Below, in pieces: positions 21,200 through 51,823 of a stretch of DNA of 64,000 bases. The notes under the pieces were generated by a model that was not told the DNA's origin, did no database searches, and saw only the letters and a program-made list of their open reading frames with translations. Source of the DNA: Candidatus Manganitrophus morganii (GTDB lineage: Bacteria > Nitrospirota > Nitrospiria > SBBL01 > Manganitrophaceae); assembly GCA_021651055.1 (NCBI GenBank), contig JAJHOH010000001.1, positions 3,224,001-3,288,000 of the forward strand, written 5' to 3'. Within the stretch, counting starts at the first letter, position 1. Every line of letters starts with the position of its first letter. The position numbers were made by a program, and so were the translations under genes.

Positions 21200-21228
21200 T
21201 TGACAGTGAACAAATCGGATGATATAAA
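21200..21228 (+). promoter_or_regulatory. Near-consensus sigma-70 promoter for the first riboswitch locus
   Basis: TTGACA at 21200-21205, exactly 17 bases, then TATAAA at 21223-21228. Transcription would start near 21235, about 40 bases before the first aptamer. This is one of the best promoters in the window, and it suggests that control is at the RNA level rather than by weak initiation. Confidence 0.85.
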
Positions 21229-21275: not shown

Positions 21276-21371
21276 CCTTTGCTCAGAGCAAACTCTCCGA
21301 AAGGAGAGGGCGCAGAGCAACGGGGCTAAAGAAGAGACACTCCTCTTCCATGCCCGCCGAGCCGCCAAAGG
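21276..21371 (+). promoter_or_regulatory. GEMM-I riboswitch aptamer, copy 1 (predicted 3',3'-cGAMP-binding, GEMM-Ib)
   Basis: The conserved GEMM-I core is present: CTCAGAGCAAAC, a stem CTCTCC-GAAA-GGAGAG with GAAA tetraloop, GGCGCAGAGC and GGGGCTAAA (tetraloop receptor). A second short arm (GAAGAG / CTCTTC) follows, and the closing stem is CCTTTG / CAAAGG with GCTC / GAGC. Aligned on the V. cholerae Vc2 aptamer, A18 is position 21285 and the nucleotide equivalent to G20 is A at 21287. In established work A at this position characterises the 3',3'-cGAMP-binding subclass. The 3' strand of the closing stem is also the 5' arm of the next terminator. Confidence 0.88.
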
Positions 21372-21394
21372 GAATCCCGTTGGCGGCTTTTTTA
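21361..21394 (+). terminator. Terminator of riboswitch copy 1 (expression platform)
   Basis: GCCGCCAA / TTGGCGGC hairpin followed by TTTTTTATTT. Its 5' arm overlaps CAAAGG, the 3' strand of the aptamer closing stem. Ligand binding should hide it and permit read-through (ON switch). Confidence 0.88.
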
Positions 21395-21451
21395 TTTGCG
21401 ATTGCGTGTGATCGCGGGGATGAGCGAATGAGCGGTCCTGTTTCAATCTGA

Positions 21452-21643
21452 CCTTTGCTCAGAGCAAACCCATCGAAAGGTGGGGACGCAGAGCAACGGG
21501 GCTAAAGAAAGGGTGTAGGGGGTAGGGTATAGGGGGTAGTGAGAGGGGATAGGGTTTGGATTTTCTACACCCTACACCCTGGTTTATCACACCCGATACC
21601 CTTTCCTCTTCGCCTTCTTCCATGCCCGCCGAGCCGCCAAAGG
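21452..21643 (+). promoter_or_regulatory. GEMM-I riboswitch aptamer, copy 2 (predicted cGAMP-binding, with about 100-base arm extension)
   Basis: The same core as copy 1, with A at the Vc2-G20 position (21463). The GAAA stem is CCCATC-GAAA-GGTGGG, compensatory relative to copy 1, so the stem is supported by covariation. The second arm is enlarged by about 100 bases: GAAAGGGT pairs with ACCCTTTC, and the interior holds GGGTGTAGGG-type repeats facing CTACACCCTACACCCTG. The closing stem CCTTTG / CAAAGG is the same as in copy 1. It lies 81 bases after copy 1, in tandem and before the same gene. Confidence 0.87.
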
Positions 21644-21666
21644 ATTTTCTATTTGGCGGCTTTTTT
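21633..21666 (+). terminator. Terminator of riboswitch copy 2
   Basis: GCCGCCAAA / TTTGGCGGC then TTTTTTATTT. The AAAGGAGG ribosome site of the downstream gene begins only a few bases later, so read-through is needed to transcribe the gene. Confidence 0.88.
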
Positions 21667-21687
21667 ATTTGGAAAAGGAGGTCCATT

Positions 21688-24354
21688 GTGAGTGACGCTA
21701 AGAAGGTTGGCCTGATCTTTGGTGTCTTCATTTTTTCTTTTCTCTTTTTTAGCACGACCGTTTTTGCCGGGGATGCAACGTTGACATGGAACACGAACAC
21801 AGAGGCCGATCTGGCCGGCTATCGCGTTTATTTCGGGACCGCTTCACGGACATATGGGCCTTCGATCAATGTCGGTAAGGCGACATCGTACACCCTTACC
21901 GGCCTTGCCAACCGAACCCATTTTTTCGCTGTGACCGCCTATGACACCGCCGGGAATGAAAGCGCTTTCTCCGTCGAAGTGTCGAAGAGTATCACCACCC
22001 CCGATACGGTGACCCCGGTGCTCTCCAGCATCAACGCGGGGAGCATTGCCGCCAACAGCGCGGTGATTACATGGGGAACCAATGAGCCGACCGATACGCA
22101 GGTGCAGTACGGCACAACGACTTCTTATGGCTCATCCACGACGCGGGTGACCACCTTGGTCACAGTCCATAGCCAAACCTTAACGGGTCTGCTCCCCTCG
22201 ACCCTTTATCACTACCGGGTATTGAGCCGAGATGCCGCCGGCAATCTCGCAACTTCGCTGGACAACACTTTTACCACCCCCGCCCCCGCACCTCCCCCTT
22301 CCTCTTCCACGCCGGCGACGGTGAGGTTGAGTCCGGCGGCCGACACCTTCTTGAATGTGGATACCTCGGCCAACAGCACCTCGACGACACTGAACACCTA
22401 CACCTGGCCTGCGAACCGGATCGCCAACGCGGTGTTGATGAAGTTTGCTTTGAGTACCCTTCCGGCCGGGGCCGTGATCCAGAGCGCGACGTTGAATCTG
22501 GCGCTGGTGGAGAGCGATACCACGTCCGATGCTACCTATAATGTTGCGGTGCACAAGCTGATCAACCGGAACCCCGATCTGACGCGAGCCACCGGTGCTA
22601 CCTACGACGGCACCAACGCTTGGGCGGCGAACAGCTGCTGTAATAATAATTATCCGCTGGCGCAGGCCGACATCTCGGCGGCCTACGATACCGAGGCGAT
22701 CAACAAGACATTGGGAAATAAAGTGTGGGACATCACCGCGATGGTGCGGGAGTGGATGAGCAGCCCTGCGAGTAACTTCGGGCTGCTGGTCAACTCCGAT
22801 GCCACCAAAGGGGCCGACCGCTACCGCACCTTTGCCAGCATGGAGCATCCGACCGCAAACCTTCGGCCGTATCTGAGCATCACTTATTCAGCATCCACTG
22901 CGGATACGTCGGCGCCGACGGCGCCGACGGGCCTGACGGCGACGGCCGCTTCCTCCAGTCAAATCAACCTTTCTTGGAATGTGTCCACCGATAACGTCGG
23001 CGTCACCGGTTATCGAATCTATCGCAACGGCACCCAGGTGGGGACGACGACCTTGCGGAATTACTCGAATGCCGGTTTAGCGGCCGACACAGCCTACAGC
23101 TACACTGTCGCAGCGTACGATGCGGCGGGGAACCTGTCGGCCCAGAGCGCCGCGGTGAGTACAAGGACGCTGCCGCCGCCGGACACGACCGCGCCGGTGA
23201 TCTCGGGAATCCTGGCGGGGAGTATCACTGCCAACGGGGCCCTGATCAGTTGGAGCACCAATGAGCCGGCCGACACCCAGGTGGAGTACGGGACAACGAC
23301 CGCGTATGGGACTTCTACCCCGATTGTCTCCACTCTGGTCACGGCGCATTCCCAGGTGCTGACCGGACTGAATCCCGCCACCACCTATCAATATCGGGTG
23401 AAGAGCAAAGATGCCGCCGGTAATCTGGCGGCCTCCGGAAATGGGACCTTCACGACCGCCCCGCTCCCGGATACAACAGCCCCCTCTGTTCCACAGGGTG
23501 TTGCAGCGAGCATCCTCTCGGCGATCCAGATCAATCTTTCCTGGAGCGCTTCGACCGATAATGTCGGGGTGGCAGGCTATCGGGTTTATCGAAACGGGGT
23601 TCAGGTGGGAACGACCGCAACCCCAGGCTACTCGGACACGGGTCTGTTGGCCGCGACATTGTACAGCTACCGGGTCGCGGCTTATGATGCGGCGGGGAAC
23701 GTCTCGGCGCAGTCTTCCGCCATCAATGCAACCACCGCCCTGCTTTCTCCCCCCCCCTCTTCCACGCCGGCGACGGTGAGGTTGAGTCCGGCGGCCGACA
23801 CCTTCTTGAATGTGGATACCTCGGCCAACAGCACCTCGACGACACTGAACACCTACACCTGGCCTGCGAACCGGATCGCCAACGCGGTGTTGATGAAGTT
23901 TGCTTTGAGTACCCTTCCGGCCGGGGCCGTGATCCAGAGCGCGACGTTGAATCTGGCGCTGGTGGAGAGCGATACCACGTCCGATGCTACCTATAATGTT
24001 GCGGTGCACAAGCTGATCAACCGGAACCCCGATCTGACGCGAGCCACCGGTGCTACCTACGACGGCACCAACGCTTGGGCGGCGAACAGCTGCTGTAATA
24101 ATAATTATCCGCTGGCGCAGGCCGACATCTCGGCGGCCTACGATACCGAGGCGATCAACAAGACATTGGGAAATAAAGTGTGGGACATCACCGCGATGGT
24201 GCGGGAGTGGATGAGCAGCCCTGCGAGTAACTTCGGGCTGCTGGTCAACTCCGATGCGACCAAAGGGGCCGATCGATACCGCACCTTCGCCAGCATGGAG
24301 CATCCGACCGCAAACCTTCGGCCGTATCTGAGCGTCACCTATACGCTTCCGTAG
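21688..24354 (+). CDS. Large exported fibronectin type III / DNRLRE surface protein (888 aa)
   Basis: AAGGAGG precedes GTG 21688, and a signal peptide follows (KKVGLIFGVFIFSFLFFSTT, cleavage near VFAG). Predicted domains in order: FN3 (about 28-110); a purple-acid-phosphatase-like FN3 (about 112-195, ending YHYRVLSRDAAGNLAT); a DNRLRE domain (about 205-400, SPAADTFLNVDTS...GLLVNSDATKGADRYRTF); FN3; PAP-like FN3; FN3; and a second DNRLRE domain to the C-terminus. Both DNRLRE copies contain a vicinal Cys pair (NSCCNNN). No catalytic motif, LPXTG or PEP-CTERM tail is seen. FN3 arrays are common in secreted glycan-binding or adhesive proteins. The gene is controlled by two tandem riboswitches, and a paralogue lies at 26863-30612. 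Confidence 0.88.
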   Translation: MSDAKKVGLIFGVFIFSFLFFSTTVFAGDATLTWNTNTEADLAGYRVYFGTASRTYGPSINVGKATSYTLTGLANRTHFFAVTAYDTAGNESAFSVEVSKSITTPDTVTPVLSSINAGSIAANSAVITWGTNEPTDTQVQYGTTTSYGSSTTRVTTLVTVHSQTLTGLLPSTLYHYRVLSRDAAGNLATSLDNTFTTPAPAPPPSSSTPATVRLSPAADTFLNVDTSANSTSTTLNTYTWPANRIANAVLMKFALSTLPAGAVIQSATLNLALVESDTTSDATYNVAVHKLINRNPDLTRATGATYDGTNAWAANSCCNNNYPLAQADISAAYDTEAINKTLGNKVWDITAMVREWMSSPASNFGLLVNSDATKGADRYRTFASMEHPTANLRPYLSITYSASTADTSAPTAPTGLTATAASSSQINLSWNVSTDNVGVTGYRIYRNGTQVGTTTLRNYSNAGLAADTAYSYTVAAYDAAGNLSAQSAAVSTRTLPPPDTTAPVISGILAGSITANGALISWSTNEPADTQVEYGTTTAYGTSTPIVSTLVTAHSQVLTGLNPATTYQYRVKSKDAAGNLAASGNGTFTTAPLPDTTAPSVPQGVAASILSAIQINLSWSASTDNVGVAGYRVYRNGVQVGTTATPGYSDTGLLAATLYSYRVAAYDAAGNVSAQSSAINATTALLSPPPSSTPATVRLSPAADTFLNVDTSANSTSTTLNTYTWPANRIANAVLMKFALSTLPAGAVIQSATLNLALVESDTTSDATYNVAVHKLINRNPDLTRATGATYDGTNAWAANSCCNNNYPLAQADISAAYDTEAINKTLGNKVWDITAMVREWMSSPASNFGLLVNSDATKGADRYRTFASMEHPTANLRPYLSVTYTLP
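22301..22802 (+). repeat. Near-perfect 500-base internal repeat, copy A (DNRLRE domain)
   Basis: Appears base-for-base identical to 23756-24257, offset 1455 bases; mismatches begin at 22803. It encodes the first DNRLRE domain. Confidence 0.9.
23756..24257 (+). repeat. Near-perfect 500-base internal repeat, copy B (DNRLRE domain)
   Basis: Second copy of the same sequence, encoding the C-terminal DNRLRE domain. Downstream codons then diverge (GCG for GCC, GATCGA for GACCGC). Confidence 0.9.
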
Positions 24355-26457: not shown

Positions 26458-26656
26458 CCTTTGCTCAGAGCAAACTTCTCGAAAGGGGAGGACGCAGAGC
26501 AACGGGGCTAAAGAAAGGGTGTAGGGGGTAGGGTATAGGGGGTAGTGAGAGGGGATAGGGTTTGGATTTTTCTACACCCTACACCCTGATTCATCACACC
26601 CGACACCCTTTCCCTTTCCTCTTCACCTTCTTCCATGCCCGCCGAGCCGCCAAAGG
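26458..26656 (+). promoter_or_regulatory. GEMM-I riboswitch aptamer, copy 3 (predicted cGAMP-binding, with arm extension)
   Basis: Core elements are CTCAGAGCAAAC, a GAAA stem CTTCTC / GGGGAG (again compensatory to the other copies), GGACGCAGAGC and GGGGCTAAA. A is at 26469, at the Vc2-G20 position. The second arm carries nearly the same roughly 100-base GGGTGTAGGG-type extension as copy 2. The closing stem is CCTTTG / CAAAGG with GCTC / GAGC. It is the upstream aptamer of the second tandem pair. Confidence 0.87.
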
Positions 26657-26670
26657 AATGGCGGCTTTTT
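26646..26670 (+). terminator. Terminator of riboswitch copy 3
   Basis: GCCGCC / GGCGGC with an 8-base loop followed by TTTTT. The 5' arm overlaps the aptamer closing stem, as in copies 1 and 2. Confidence 0.85.
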
Positions 26671-26736
26671 GGGGAGTCTTTCCGTCGCTCCCCCTCACGG
26701 ACTGAATCAACACTCACCATACATACTCGCATTTGA

Positions 26737-26824
26737 CCTTTGCTCAGAGCAAACCCATCGAAAGGTGGGGACGCAGAGTAACGGGGCTACCGCCATCCGG
26801 CCACGCCCGCCGAGCCGCCAAAGG
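26737..26824 (+). promoter_or_regulatory. GEMM-I riboswitch aptamer, copy 4 (divergent)
   Basis: Conserved CTCAGAGCAAAC with A at 26748, GAAA stem CCCATC / GGTGGG and GGACGCAGAG. The next part then differs from the other copies: GAGTAACGGGGCTACCG replaces GAGCAACGGGGCTAAAG. The CTAAA tetraloop-receptor segment is thus lost or altered. The second arm is short and weak. The closing stem CCTTTG / CAAAGG is kept. A poor A/T hairpin (AAAGGAAA / TTTCCTTT, 26820-26842) takes the place of the GC-rich terminator. It may be a degenerating or differently acting copy. Confidence 0.75.
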
Positions 26825-26862
26825 AAATAGCTCTTTTCCTTTTTCGCGTTTGGAGGTTCGCC

Positions 26863-29800
26863 GTGGCAGATTACCTGAGAAGGTGCAGGCTTCTTCTCGC
26901 CCTTGTTCTTTTTCTCATCCTCAATCATCATACGCTTGCCCTTGCCGGGGAGGCCATCCTGACCTGGGACCCGAACAGCGAAGGAGACCTGGCAGGCTAC
27001 CGGGTCTACGTCGGTCTACTGCCGGGCGTCTACAGCCCTCCGATCGATGTGGGACGGGTGACTTCCTGGACGGTGCCGAACCTGACCGCGGGGCTGACCT
27101 ACCATTTTGCGATCACCGCCTATGATACCGACGGCAACGAGAGCGGTTTTTCGAATGAAGCCCGCAAAACGATCCCTCTGCTAAACGACCTGATTGCGCC
27201 GCTGATCTCGAGTATTACCAACAGCAATCGCACCCTGAGTTCGGCCCTCCTCACCTGGGGCACCGATGAGCCGGCGGATACCCGGATCGAATACGGCACG
27301 ACGACCGCCTACGGGCTGACCACGCCGTTGGTGTCGAGCTTGGTGACCGTGCACAGCCAAACCCTCTCGAATTTACTCCCCGGCACACTCTATCACTATC
27401 GGGTTCTCAGCCGGGATGCGGCGGGCAATCTGGCAACCTCGGCCGATCATGTCTTTACAACATTATCCGATACCACGACGCCGACCGTCCCTGGAAATGT
27501 CAGTGGGGCGGCGCTGTCGACCACTCAGATCAATCTGACCTGGAGCGTTTCCACGGATAACGTCGGGGTGGCCGGCTATCGAATCTATCGCAACGGGGTG
27601 GAGATCGGCGCCCGCAGTGTTCCGACCTTCTCGGATGGGGGACTCACCCCTGATACCCTCTACAGCTATCGGGTGGCGGCCTATGACGCCGCGGGGAATC
27701 TCTCGGCGCAGAGCGCCGCGGCAAGCGTAAGGACATTGGCGCCGGCGGACACCGCCGCGCCGGTGATCTCAGGAATGGGAGCGATCAATATCACCACCGG
27801 CGGAGCCTTGATCAGCTGGAGCACCAATGAACCGTCCGACACGCAGATCCAGTATGGGACCACAACCGCTTTCGGTTCTTTCACCGCGATCGTTCCGACG
27901 CCGGTGACGGCGCACGCGCAGAGCCTGACCGGCCTGCTTCCCGCCACCCTTTATCACTACCGGGTGCGCAGCCGCGATGCGGCGGGAAATTTGGCGGTCT
28001 CCAACAACGGCAGCTTTACCACCGCCGCTCTTCCCGATACCACCCTCCCCTCCGCGCCGACAAACGTCGGGGCGGCCGCCGTCTCGTCTTCACAAGTTCA
28101 GTTGAGTTGGAGCGCCTCGACCGATAACGTCGGGGTCGCCGGCTATCGGATCTATCGCAATGGGGTGCAGGTCGCCAGCAGCACCCTTCCGACCTATCTC
28201 AACACCGGCCTGGCGGCGAACACGGCATATCATTACGCGGTGGCGGCTTATGACGCCGGGGGGAACCTCTCCCCCGCCTCGGCGGCCATTTCCGTCACGA
28301 CCCTCCCTTTGATGCCGACGGTTTCACAGGCGTCGGCTTCCGGCATTACGGCCGCCTCCGCCACCCTCTCCGGGTCGGTCAATCCATCGGGGGCGACCAC
28401 TTCGGCTTGGTTCGAGTATGGGACCACCACGGCTTACGGCAGCAGCACGACCCCGGTGACCCTCTCGGCGGCGAACACGATCTCCGCCGACCTGACCCCC
28501 TTGGCGTCGGGGACCGCCTATCACTTCCGCCTTGTCGCCCGCAATGCGGGGGGAACGGCCTTCGGACCGAACACTTCCTTCAACACGCCGGCCCCTCCGG
28601 CCTCCGCTCCGGCGCCGCCCCCTTCGGGTCCGATCTCCGGCTACAACATGACAGAGGAGCCGTATGCCTGGGCGGAGACTTCGACTCCATTAACATTCAG
28701 CGGAGACGACAACGCGCTTTCCCTCTCGCTTCCATTCTCCTTTCCTTTTTACGGCCAGAGTTATCAGCAGCTCTATATTTCCACAAACGGATTGCTCACC
28801 TTCGGGACGGCCAACACCGCTTACGTTCCCCAGCCGGTACAGAACCCCGTTCCGCCGAATGCCTTCATCGCCCCCTTCTGGCGGGATCTTTATGTCGGAC
28901 TGCGGCAGATCAGCATTGCTTCTTCGGATTCGGAGTTCGTGATTTCCTTCAACGGGGTCAGGGACCTCTGCTGCAGCACGACCCACACCTTCCAGGTGAT
29001 TCTCCGTCCAGACGGAACGATTCTCTTGCAGTATGGGGAGATTGTTTTAAATGTTCCAACCACATTCGGCATTGAAAACCAAGACGGCAGCGCCGGGGTG
29101 CCGCTCCTCTCTGTTACCGCGAACACCGCTTTCCGCTTCACCCCCAATACCGCGCAGGCTCCCCCGCCGGCGACTGATGCGTCGGCGCCGTCGGCGCCGG
29201 CGGGCCTTGCAGCGACGCCCGTCTCCTCCAGCCAAATCAATCTGGCCTGGAACCCATCAACCGACAACGTGGGGGTCTCCGGTTATCGGGTCTACCGCAA
29301 CGGCCTCCAGGTGGGAACGACGACGGTGACGAGTTACGCCAATCCCGGTTTAGGGGCAGATACGACTTACAACTATACCGTCGCCGCTTTTGACGCGGAG
29401 GGAAACCTTTCCGCACAGAGCGCGGGGGCGAGTGCGCGCACGCTGCCGCCCCCCGATACCACCGCTCCGGTGATCTCTGCTGTGGCGGCGGGGAGCATCA
29501 CCACCGGCGGGGCGTTGATCAGTTGGAGTACGAACGAGCCGTCCGACACCCAGGTGGAGTATGGGACGACCACCGCCTACGGCAGCGCCACCCCGATTAT
29601 CTCGACCTTGGTCACCGCCCACTCTCGGAGTCTGTCGGGTCTGCTTCCTTCCACCCTCTATCACTATCGGGTGCGCAGCCGGGATGCGGCGGGCAATCTG
29701 GCGGTCTCAAACAACGGCAGCTTTACCACGGCGGCCGCGCCCGATACGTCCTCGCCGTCGGCGCCGGCGGGCCTGACAGCCGCCGCCGTCTCCTCCAGCC

Positions 29801-30612
29801 AAATCAATCTGGCCTGGAACCCATCAACCGACAACGTCGGGGTCTCCGGTTATCGGGTCTACCGCAACGGCCTCCAGGTGGGAACGACGACGGTGACGAG
29901 TTTCTCAAATACCGGCTTGACGGCCGGTACGGTTTACAGTTACTCCGTATCCGCTTTTGATGCGGCGGGGAATGCCTCGGCCCAGAGCGCCGCGATGAGC
30001 GTCGCCACACCGGCCGCGAGTCAAAGCGCCACGGTGGCGATCAGTCCGGCCGCCGATACCTACCTAAACGTCGACGCCGGGGTCAACAGTACGGAGCCGA
30101 CGCTGAACACCTACACCTGGCCGGCGAATCGGATCGCCAATACGGTGCTGATGAAGTTTAATCTTTCCGGCATTCCGGCCGGTGCCATCATTGAGAGCGC
30201 GACGCTCAACCTCTCGCTGGTGGAGGCGGATACGGAGGCGGAGAGCACTTATACCGTCGCCGTACATAAGATGGCCAACAAGAACCCGGATTTGACCCGG
30301 GCGAACGGGTATACCTATGATGGCGTGAACGGTTGGACGGCGAATGCCTGCTGCGACAGCAACGTTCCGCTGGCACAGGCGGATATTTCATCGGCCCATG
30401 ATACCAAGGCGATCGACAAAGTGCTGGGGAGAAAAAGCTGGAATATTACGATCATGGTACAGCAGTGGATCAATACCCCCTTGACCAACTACGGGCTGCT
30501 GCTGAATTCCGATCCGACAAAAGGAGCCGACCGTTACCGCACTTTCGCCAGCATGGAACATCCGACCGCCTCACTGAGGCCGTCCTTGAGCATCACCTAT
30601 CGGATGCCGTAA
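26863..30612 (+). CDS. Very large exported fibronectin type III / nidogen-like / DNRLRE protein (1249 aa)
   Basis: GGAGG (26852-26856) precedes GTG 26863, and the signal peptide is LLLALVLFLILNHHTLALAG. FN3 and purple-acid-phosphatase-like FN3 modules alternate from about residue 30 to 570. A different beta-rich module at about 585-770 reads LPFSFPFYGQSYQQLYISTN, GLLTFG, IAPFWRDLYVG and IENQDG, resembling nidogen-like (NIDO-type) or C-type sandwich domains. Further FN3-type modules follow, and a DNRLRE domain ends the protein (about 1045-1249) with SPAADTYLNVDAG and RTFASMEHPTA. No enzymatic motif is seen. It is a paralogue of 21688-24354, with the same FN3 repeats, the same C-terminal domain and the same type of tandem riboswitch leader. 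Confidence 0.87.
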   Translation: MADYLRRCRLLLALVLFLILNHHTLALAGEAILTWDPNSEGDLAGYRVYVGLLPGVYSPPIDVGRVTSWTVPNLTAGLTYHFAITAYDTDGNESGFSNEARKTIPLLNDLIAPLISSITNSNRTLSSALLTWGTDEPADTRIEYGTTTAYGLTTPLVSSLVTVHSQTLSNLLPGTLYHYRVLSRDAAGNLATSADHVFTTLSDTTTPTVPGNVSGAALSTTQINLTWSVSTDNVGVAGYRIYRNGVEIGARSVPTFSDGGLTPDTLYSYRVAAYDAAGNLSAQSAAASVRTLAPADTAAPVISGMGAINITTGGALISWSTNEPSDTQIQYGTTTAFGSFTAIVPTPVTAHAQSLTGLLPATLYHYRVRSRDAAGNLAVSNNGSFTTAALPDTTLPSAPTNVGAAAVSSSQVQLSWSASTDNVGVAGYRIYRNGVQVASSTLPTYLNTGLAANTAYHYAVAAYDAGGNLSPASAAISVTTLPLMPTVSQASASGITAASATLSGSVNPSGATTSAWFEYGTTTAYGSSTTPVTLSAANTISADLTPLASGTAYHFRLVARNAGGTAFGPNTSFNTPAPPASAPAPPPSGPISGYNMTEEPYAWAETSTPLTFSGDDNALSLSLPFSFPFYGQSYQQLYISTNGLLTFGTANTAYVPQPVQNPVPPNAFIAPFWRDLYVGLRQISIASSDSEFVISFNGVRDLCCSTTHTFQVILRPDGTILLQYGEIVLNVPTTFGIENQDGSAGVPLLSVTANTAFRFTPNTAQAPPPATDASAPSAPAGLAATPVSSSQINLAWNPSTDNVGVSGYRVYRNGLQVGTTTVTSYANPGLGADTTYNYTVAAFDAEGNLSAQSAGASARTLPPPDTTAPVISAVAAGSITTGGALISWSTNEPSDTQVEYGTTTAYGSATPIISTLVTAHSRSLSGLLPSTLYHYRVRSRDAAGNLAVSNNGSFTTAAAPDTSSPSAPAGLTAAAVSSSQINLAWNPSTDNVGVSGYRVYRNGLQVGTTTVTSFSNTGLTAGTVYSYSVSAFDAAGNASAQSAAMSVATPAASQSATVAISPAADTYLNVDAGVNSTEPTLNTYTWPANRIANTVLMKFNLSGIPAGAIIESATLNLSLVEADTEAESTYTVAVHKMANKNPDLTRANGYTYDGVNGWTANACCDSNVPLAQADISSAHDTKAIDKVLGRKSWNITIMVQQWINTPLTNYGLLLNSDPTKGADRYRTFASMEHPTASLRPSLSITYRMP

Positions 30613-51746: not shown

Positions 51747-51823
51747 GCCCCCGTAGCTCAGGTGGATAGAGCAGCGGTTTCCTAAACCGTTTGCCGGGTG
51801 TTCAAATCACCCCGGGGGCACCA
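51747..51823 (+). tRNA. tRNA-Arg (anticodon CCT)
   Basis: Folds as a standard cloverleaf: acceptor GCCCCCG / CGGGGGC, D arm GCTC / GAGC, anticodon stem GCGGT / ACCGT with loop TTCCTAA (anticodon CCT at 51781-51783), and T arm GGGTG / CACCC with loop TTCAAAT. The CCA end is encoded (51821-51823). It reads AGG codons. Confidence 0.97.

Follow-up and report, generated by a model that had tools for sequence, protein, structure and literature searches.

The window analysed here, a 64-kb stretch of a 4.29-Mb, single-contig Nitrospirota genome, contains two paralogous genes for exported FN3/DNRLRE proteins, each preceded by a pair of class-I GEMM aptamers (Table 1). The promoter-like sequence upstream of aptamer 1 was not returned by a stricter consensus scan, which demands a T at the last -10 position. 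The first FN3/DNRLRE protein, which also has a purple-acid-phosphatase-N-like region, would be expected to act at the cell surface. Among named records, those closest to it that share both the RNA and the gene behind it come from Candidatus Manganitrophus sp. GAC4 and from Manganitrophaceae MAGs. This lineage is the home of Mn(II)-oxidising chemolithoautotrophs (PMC9040806), a way of life that the host strain itself may share. The GAC4 orthologue of the first gene (L087, reverse strand, from base 1252 of the reverse complement) has a stop after 20 codons, which we take to be a frameshift or an assembly error. The window also contains one tRNA gene, at 51747-51820.

Table 1. Features of the window and GEMM-I aptamers elsewhere in the genome (window coordinates unless marked as genome)
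Feature	Position	Strand	Details
Sigma-70-like promoter	21200..21228	+	TTGACA-17-TATAAA; ~45 nt upstream of aptamer 1; sequence read directly
GEMM-I aptamer 1 (clear A20)	21276..21371	+	P1 21276-21281/21366-21371; A20 21287; G48 21315; ligand-pairing C (Vc2 C92) 21365
Terminator 1 with T run	21359..21394	+	5' arm 21359-21368 takes in J1/3 and P1 3' strand; fold -22.3 kcal/mol, z -4.6
GEMM-I aptamer 2, long P3 (clear A20)	21452..21643	+	P1 21452-21457/21638-21643; A20 21463; G48 21491; C92 equivalent 21637
Hairpin insert (~100 nt), P3 tip of aptamer 2	21508..21612	+	96-99% identical to inserts of three other aptamers in the genome
Terminator 2 with T run	21631..21667	+	5' arm 21631-21644 overlaps aptamer 2 J1/3 and P1 3' strand; fold -18.6 kcal/mol, z -2.7
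Exported FN3/purple-acid-phosphatase-N-like/DNRLRE protein gene	21688..24354	+	GTG start; Shine-Dalgarno GGAGG; Pfam fn3 1.9e-25; NCBIfam DNRLRE 5.5e-30
Aptamer 3 (clear A20)	26458..26656	+	A20 26469; P3 insert as in aptamer 2; followed by terminator 26646-26670; RF01051 31.5 bits
Aptamer 4 (clear A20)	26737..26824	+	A20 26748; RF01051 56.1 bits (cut-off 35)
Second exported FN3/DNRLRE protein gene	26863..30612	+	Paralogue of the first; Pfam/NCBIfam profiles
Clear A20 aptamers	genome 603519, 1017891
Clear A20 aptamer	genome 3011177	-
Degenerate A20-like aptamer	genome 1112713 (L007:1501-1589)		AGCUAC replacing AGCAAA
G20 aptamers	genome 600786, 1017732, 1935127

Two tandem GEMM-I leaders

A preliminary description of this DNA had placed two class-I GEMM aptamers in series at 21276-21666, and this reading is borne out by matches to RF01051 and RF03167 and by the support for individual base pairs. 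In a covariance-model search with RF01051, the check that it had proposed, aptamer 1 scored 62.8 bits (cut-off 35; E 6.5e-10 over 64 kb). Aptamer 2 reached 34.3 bits in the whole-genome search, just below the cut-off, because ~100 nt are inserted in its P3; both of its halves align across their full length with the sister family RF03167 (43.6 bits, E 5.4e-9). The P2 stems are precisely those originally given, CTCTCC/GGAGAG and CCCATC/GGTGGG. Both aptamers also have the reported A at the position of Vc2 G20 (hereafter A20), together with C at the position of C92, the combination expected of GEMM-Ib. The P3 insert of aptamer 2 and the second tandem at 26458-26824 had been missed.

Across 30 related aptamers, 96.8% of the pairs are standard and 19 of 25 pairs show changes on both sides, a level reached by none of 500 shuffles. 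Compensatory changes support P1, P2 and P3; for example, P1 UUUG/CAAA is replaced by GCUG/CAGC in Gemmatimonadota. These relatives were mostly chosen by a pattern fixing A20, G48 and the P2 loop, so these three features carry no evidential weight inside the alignment. The aptamers described here share their J1/2 (CUCAGA), lower P2 (G-C/C-G) and GAAA-capped P2 with the Vc2 c-di-GMP-I riboswitch. They differ from it in having A20/G48 in place of G20/A48, and their expression platforms are a terminator or sequestration of the Shine-Dalgarno sequence.

The insert in aptamer 2 is one of four near-identical P3 hairpins in A20 aptamers, the others lying at genome 603574, 1017946 and 3250514. GAC4 has a shorter insert at two orthologous sites; its counterparts of window 21508 and genome 603574 have no insert. 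At the window site with the insert, the flanking P3 pair is changed from A-U to G-C, and the two changes together would fit gene conversion from another aptamer. Fragments of the insert occur elsewhere in both this genome and GAC4, and fragments of the same GGGTGTAGGGGGTAGGGTATAGGG repeat were seen at genome 1353238, 1410200, 593314 and 1177666. In other relatives the P3 tips bear unrelated extensions, and the site is therefore tolerant. The insert also matched microRNA families of plants and animals, at scores far under the cut-offs of those families, and these matches were dismissed as chance.

In the second tandem, aptamer 3 falls below the RF01051 threshold because of its P3 insert. Aptamer 4 is not followed by a terminator, and in folds of three orthologues its 3' region (J1/3 and P1 strand) can pair with the Shine-Dalgarno sequence (26852-26856) of the next gene; this pairing is clearest in this genome and the GAC4 orthologue, with the GW715 fold less clear-cut. 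Such an arrangement suggests that the first member of this tandem would control transcription and the last translation.

Terminators and a proposed ligand-ON switch

Folding and coordinates also confirm that each of aptamers 1 and 2 has, as first described, a terminator whose 5' arm overlaps the closing stem. Neither terminator was returned by a promoter/terminator scan with strict rules; both are seen by folding. Each begins within GAGCCGCCAAA, which also carries the ligand-pairing C and the P1 3' strand, and since this segment is shared, P1 with bound ligand and the terminator are mutually exclusive. The predicted architecture supports a classic ligand-ON transcriptional design, and we infer the same direction of control in vivo.

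We consider it probable that two serial GEMM-Ib riboswitches gate transcription of the FN3/DNRLRE gene, their ligand most likely being 3',3'-cGAMP made by Hypr GGDEF proteins of the host. When ligand is absent, each nascent leader would end transcription by folding its terminator, in which the P1 3' strand and the ligand-pairing C are tied up. With a cyclic dinucleotide, most likely 3',3'-cGAMP, in the junction, P1 would form, the terminator would be blocked and RNA polymerase would continue. Both aptamers would have to be occupied, and expression should therefore climb more steeply than with a single switch. The sharper response envisaged in the preliminary description would be a fair expectation by analogy with published tandem c-di-GMP-I systems (PMC9481103). 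The elements on which this model is built, namely the aptamers, A20, the terminators with their overlap and the Hypr signatures, come from sequence and folding.

Ligand identity

A20 had been taken as the mark of the cGAMP-binding subclass. The aptamer class, the ON design, A20 itself and two Hypr candidates in the host all speak for this, and a cGAMP reading is well supported; A20 by itself, however, tunes selectivity and does not fix it. Exclusive cGAMP binding would be a further claim. The literature treats the G20 position as a factor in selectivity, not as a hard filter (PMC9262584). In Desulfobacca, a naturally occurring A20 aptamer gained cGAMP binding and lost little c-di-GMP binding (PMC9481103).

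The genome encodes 33 GGDEF domains, two of which have the Hypr Ser. These putative cGAMP synthases, at 2560579(+) and 673028(-), have Ser at the equivalent of GmGacA Ser348, a GGDEF motif, and F or D, not Arg, at the equivalent of residue 304. Ser348, the GGDEF motif and the lack of Arg304 are features reported for cGAMP-favouring Hypr cyclases (PMC6456294). The best PDB match of the protein at 2560579(+) is 6D9M, the Hypr domain of Geobacter metallireducens GacA (174.5 bits versus 126.2 for the next). The remaining GGDEF domains read at the Ser348-equivalent position have D, bar one with N. A GGDEF protein at genome 903923 (L120) has Asn at the Hypr position and a GGEEF motif. A search of the genome for a SMODS/DncV-type gene found none, so the Hypr proteins are the likely origin of cGAMP.

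In a survey of 396 Nitrospirota genomes, 45 of the 62 with A20 aptamers have the Hypr motif, compared with 98 of the 334 without A20 and 25 of the 61 with G20 aptamers only (Fisher 2.4e-10 versus all others and 5e-4 versus G20-only, counting genomes as independent and without correction for phylogeny). The motif was scored by a fixed-spacing pattern, which one of this genome's own two Hypr candidates escapes as well; by this pattern 17 of the 62 A20 genomes lack it, nine of them from one family. In Geobacter, deletion of the Hypr cyclase gene gacA lowers all GEMM-Ib transcripts, including those with tandem leaders, and increases termination near the cGAMP site (PMC6456294).

The same 396 genomes contain 274 aptamers of the common pattern, 124 with A20 and 150 with G20. 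G48 (CGCAGAG) is present in 88 of the A20 aptamers versus three of the G20 aptamers, one of which has a poorly pairing stem. In our mapping, position 48 would correspond to pilM A42, which is listed among the ligand contacts (PMC6274999), and its coupling to position 20 gives the impression that both residues were retuned in concert. We suggest, tentatively and with some doubt, that A20/G48 might constitute a hitherto unseparated GEMM-I subtype (in Nitrospirota, Gemmatimonadota, Eisenbacteria and others) with this second pocket residue retuned, and that Manganitrophaceae might use it to regulate surface proteins through cGAMP, a conserved leader with c-di-GMP and cGAMP as its two inputs being part of this regulon.

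An alternative, which we think unlikely, is that the A20 aptamers sense both messengers or chiefly c-di-GMP and work as ordinary GEMM-I ON switches, G20A merely relaxing specificity so that the total cyclic dinucleotide pool is reported. Their lower P2 and J1/2 are nearer to Vc2 with a G20A change than to pilM (PMC6274999), and published A20 RNAs can retain c-di-GMP binding (PMC9481103). The rarity of the Hypr Ser among the host's GGDEF domains points the same way, and the ~30 ordinary domains, which can supply c-di-GMP, count against cGAMP as the exclusive ligand. However, the same genome keeps a separate set of G20 aptamers, and A20 both co-occurs with Hypr GGDEF proteins and is coupled to G48, a pattern that neutral G20A drift would not explain.

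The near restriction of G48 to A20 aptamers, at a position whose pilM equivalent contacts the ligand, could instead mean that the A20/G48 pair specifies some other cyclic dinucleotide or a linear intermediate. This seems very improbable: the intercalating A47 and the C that Watson-Crick pairs with the G base are kept, as in known GEMM-Ib, and 36 A20 aptamers retain A48, so A20 works without G48. We give even less credence to the view that the leaders are relics of a decaying array that has lost its regulation, aptamer 2 having been broken by its insert. The size of that insert and the truncated gene in the GAC4 assembly might suggest decay, but P1, P2, lower P3, junction and terminator are all intact around the insert, P3-tip inserts are common and varied in relatives, and the leader is almost unchanged between species.

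Known systems, a putative A20 regulon and a mixed tandem

Most descriptions of cGAMP riboswitches concern Deltaproteobacteria with metal-oxide respiration, Geobacter in particular. Judged from its sequence, the leader described here is a genuine, well-formed tandem of the GEMM-Ib type, and the genome has a candidate synthase to match. It resembles the Geobacter examples (pilM and the tandem GSU2885 OmcAHG leader), as known from published descriptions, in its RF01051 fold, A20, ligand-pairing C, terminator over P1, tandem arrangement and the presence of Hypr GGDEF proteins in the genome. It differs in its Nitrospirota host, in G48 and in the large P3 hairpin, and its lower P2 is the Vc2-like one in place of the C15-G40 pair of the solved pilM RNA (PMC6274999). 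The Geobacter regulon consists of cytochromes and pili, whereas here secreted FN3/DNRLRE proteins are found.

Tandem GEMM-Ib leaders were already known from Geobacter (PMC6456294), and 347 doublets and 12 triplets of c-di-GMP-I riboswitches are listed in PMC9481103; like those, the present tandem comprises two complete serial switches with separate expression platforms, but its aptamers are A20. What seems new, at least to us, is the host together with the coupling to G48, the P3 insert and the mixed tandem described below. A riboswitch and candidate synthase in a lineage with Mn(II)-oxidising chemolithoautotrophs suggest that cGAMP may be a wider signal of life on mineral surfaces. If true, the A20/G48 subtype and the Manganitrophaceae regulon would link cGAMP as a signal to bacteria whose life on metal runs in the oxidative direction.

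In total, the genome has 11 RF01051 aptamers (seven clear A20, one degenerate A20 and three G20). Genes downstream of the A20 set encode exported FN3/DNRLRE proteins, an FN3-array protein and a 320-aa exported protein matching no known family; one A20-led operon (L146:444-7197) encodes two exported proteins of unknown family, a TPR protein and a DUF1302 outer-membrane-like protein. Upstream of the FN3-array gene lies a mixed tandem (genome 1017732-1018110), in which the leading aptamer is G20 and has a terminator of its own, and the second is A20. This order is kept in GAC4 (L108) and GW715 (L084), hence in three Manganitrophaceae genomes, and a mix of G20 before A20 is not among the two-input gates described in the sections of PMC9481103 considered. 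Provided that both are ON switches, the mixed tandem could possibly act as an AND gate for c-di-GMP and cGAMP; in folds of its G20 leader the terminator is separate from P1, which is compatible with both AND and NOT-A-AND-B logic. Together with the A20/G48 coupling, this leader offers concrete RNAs with which to study ligand choice by GEMM aptamers and their integration of two messengers.

No NCBIfam sorting model matched the C-termini of the FN3-array proteins (L144:4478-6718 and L145:5613-9602). These consist of a Cys-containing, Gly-rich stretch, a hydrophobic segment and a basic tail, and resemble a CTERM-type sorting signal.
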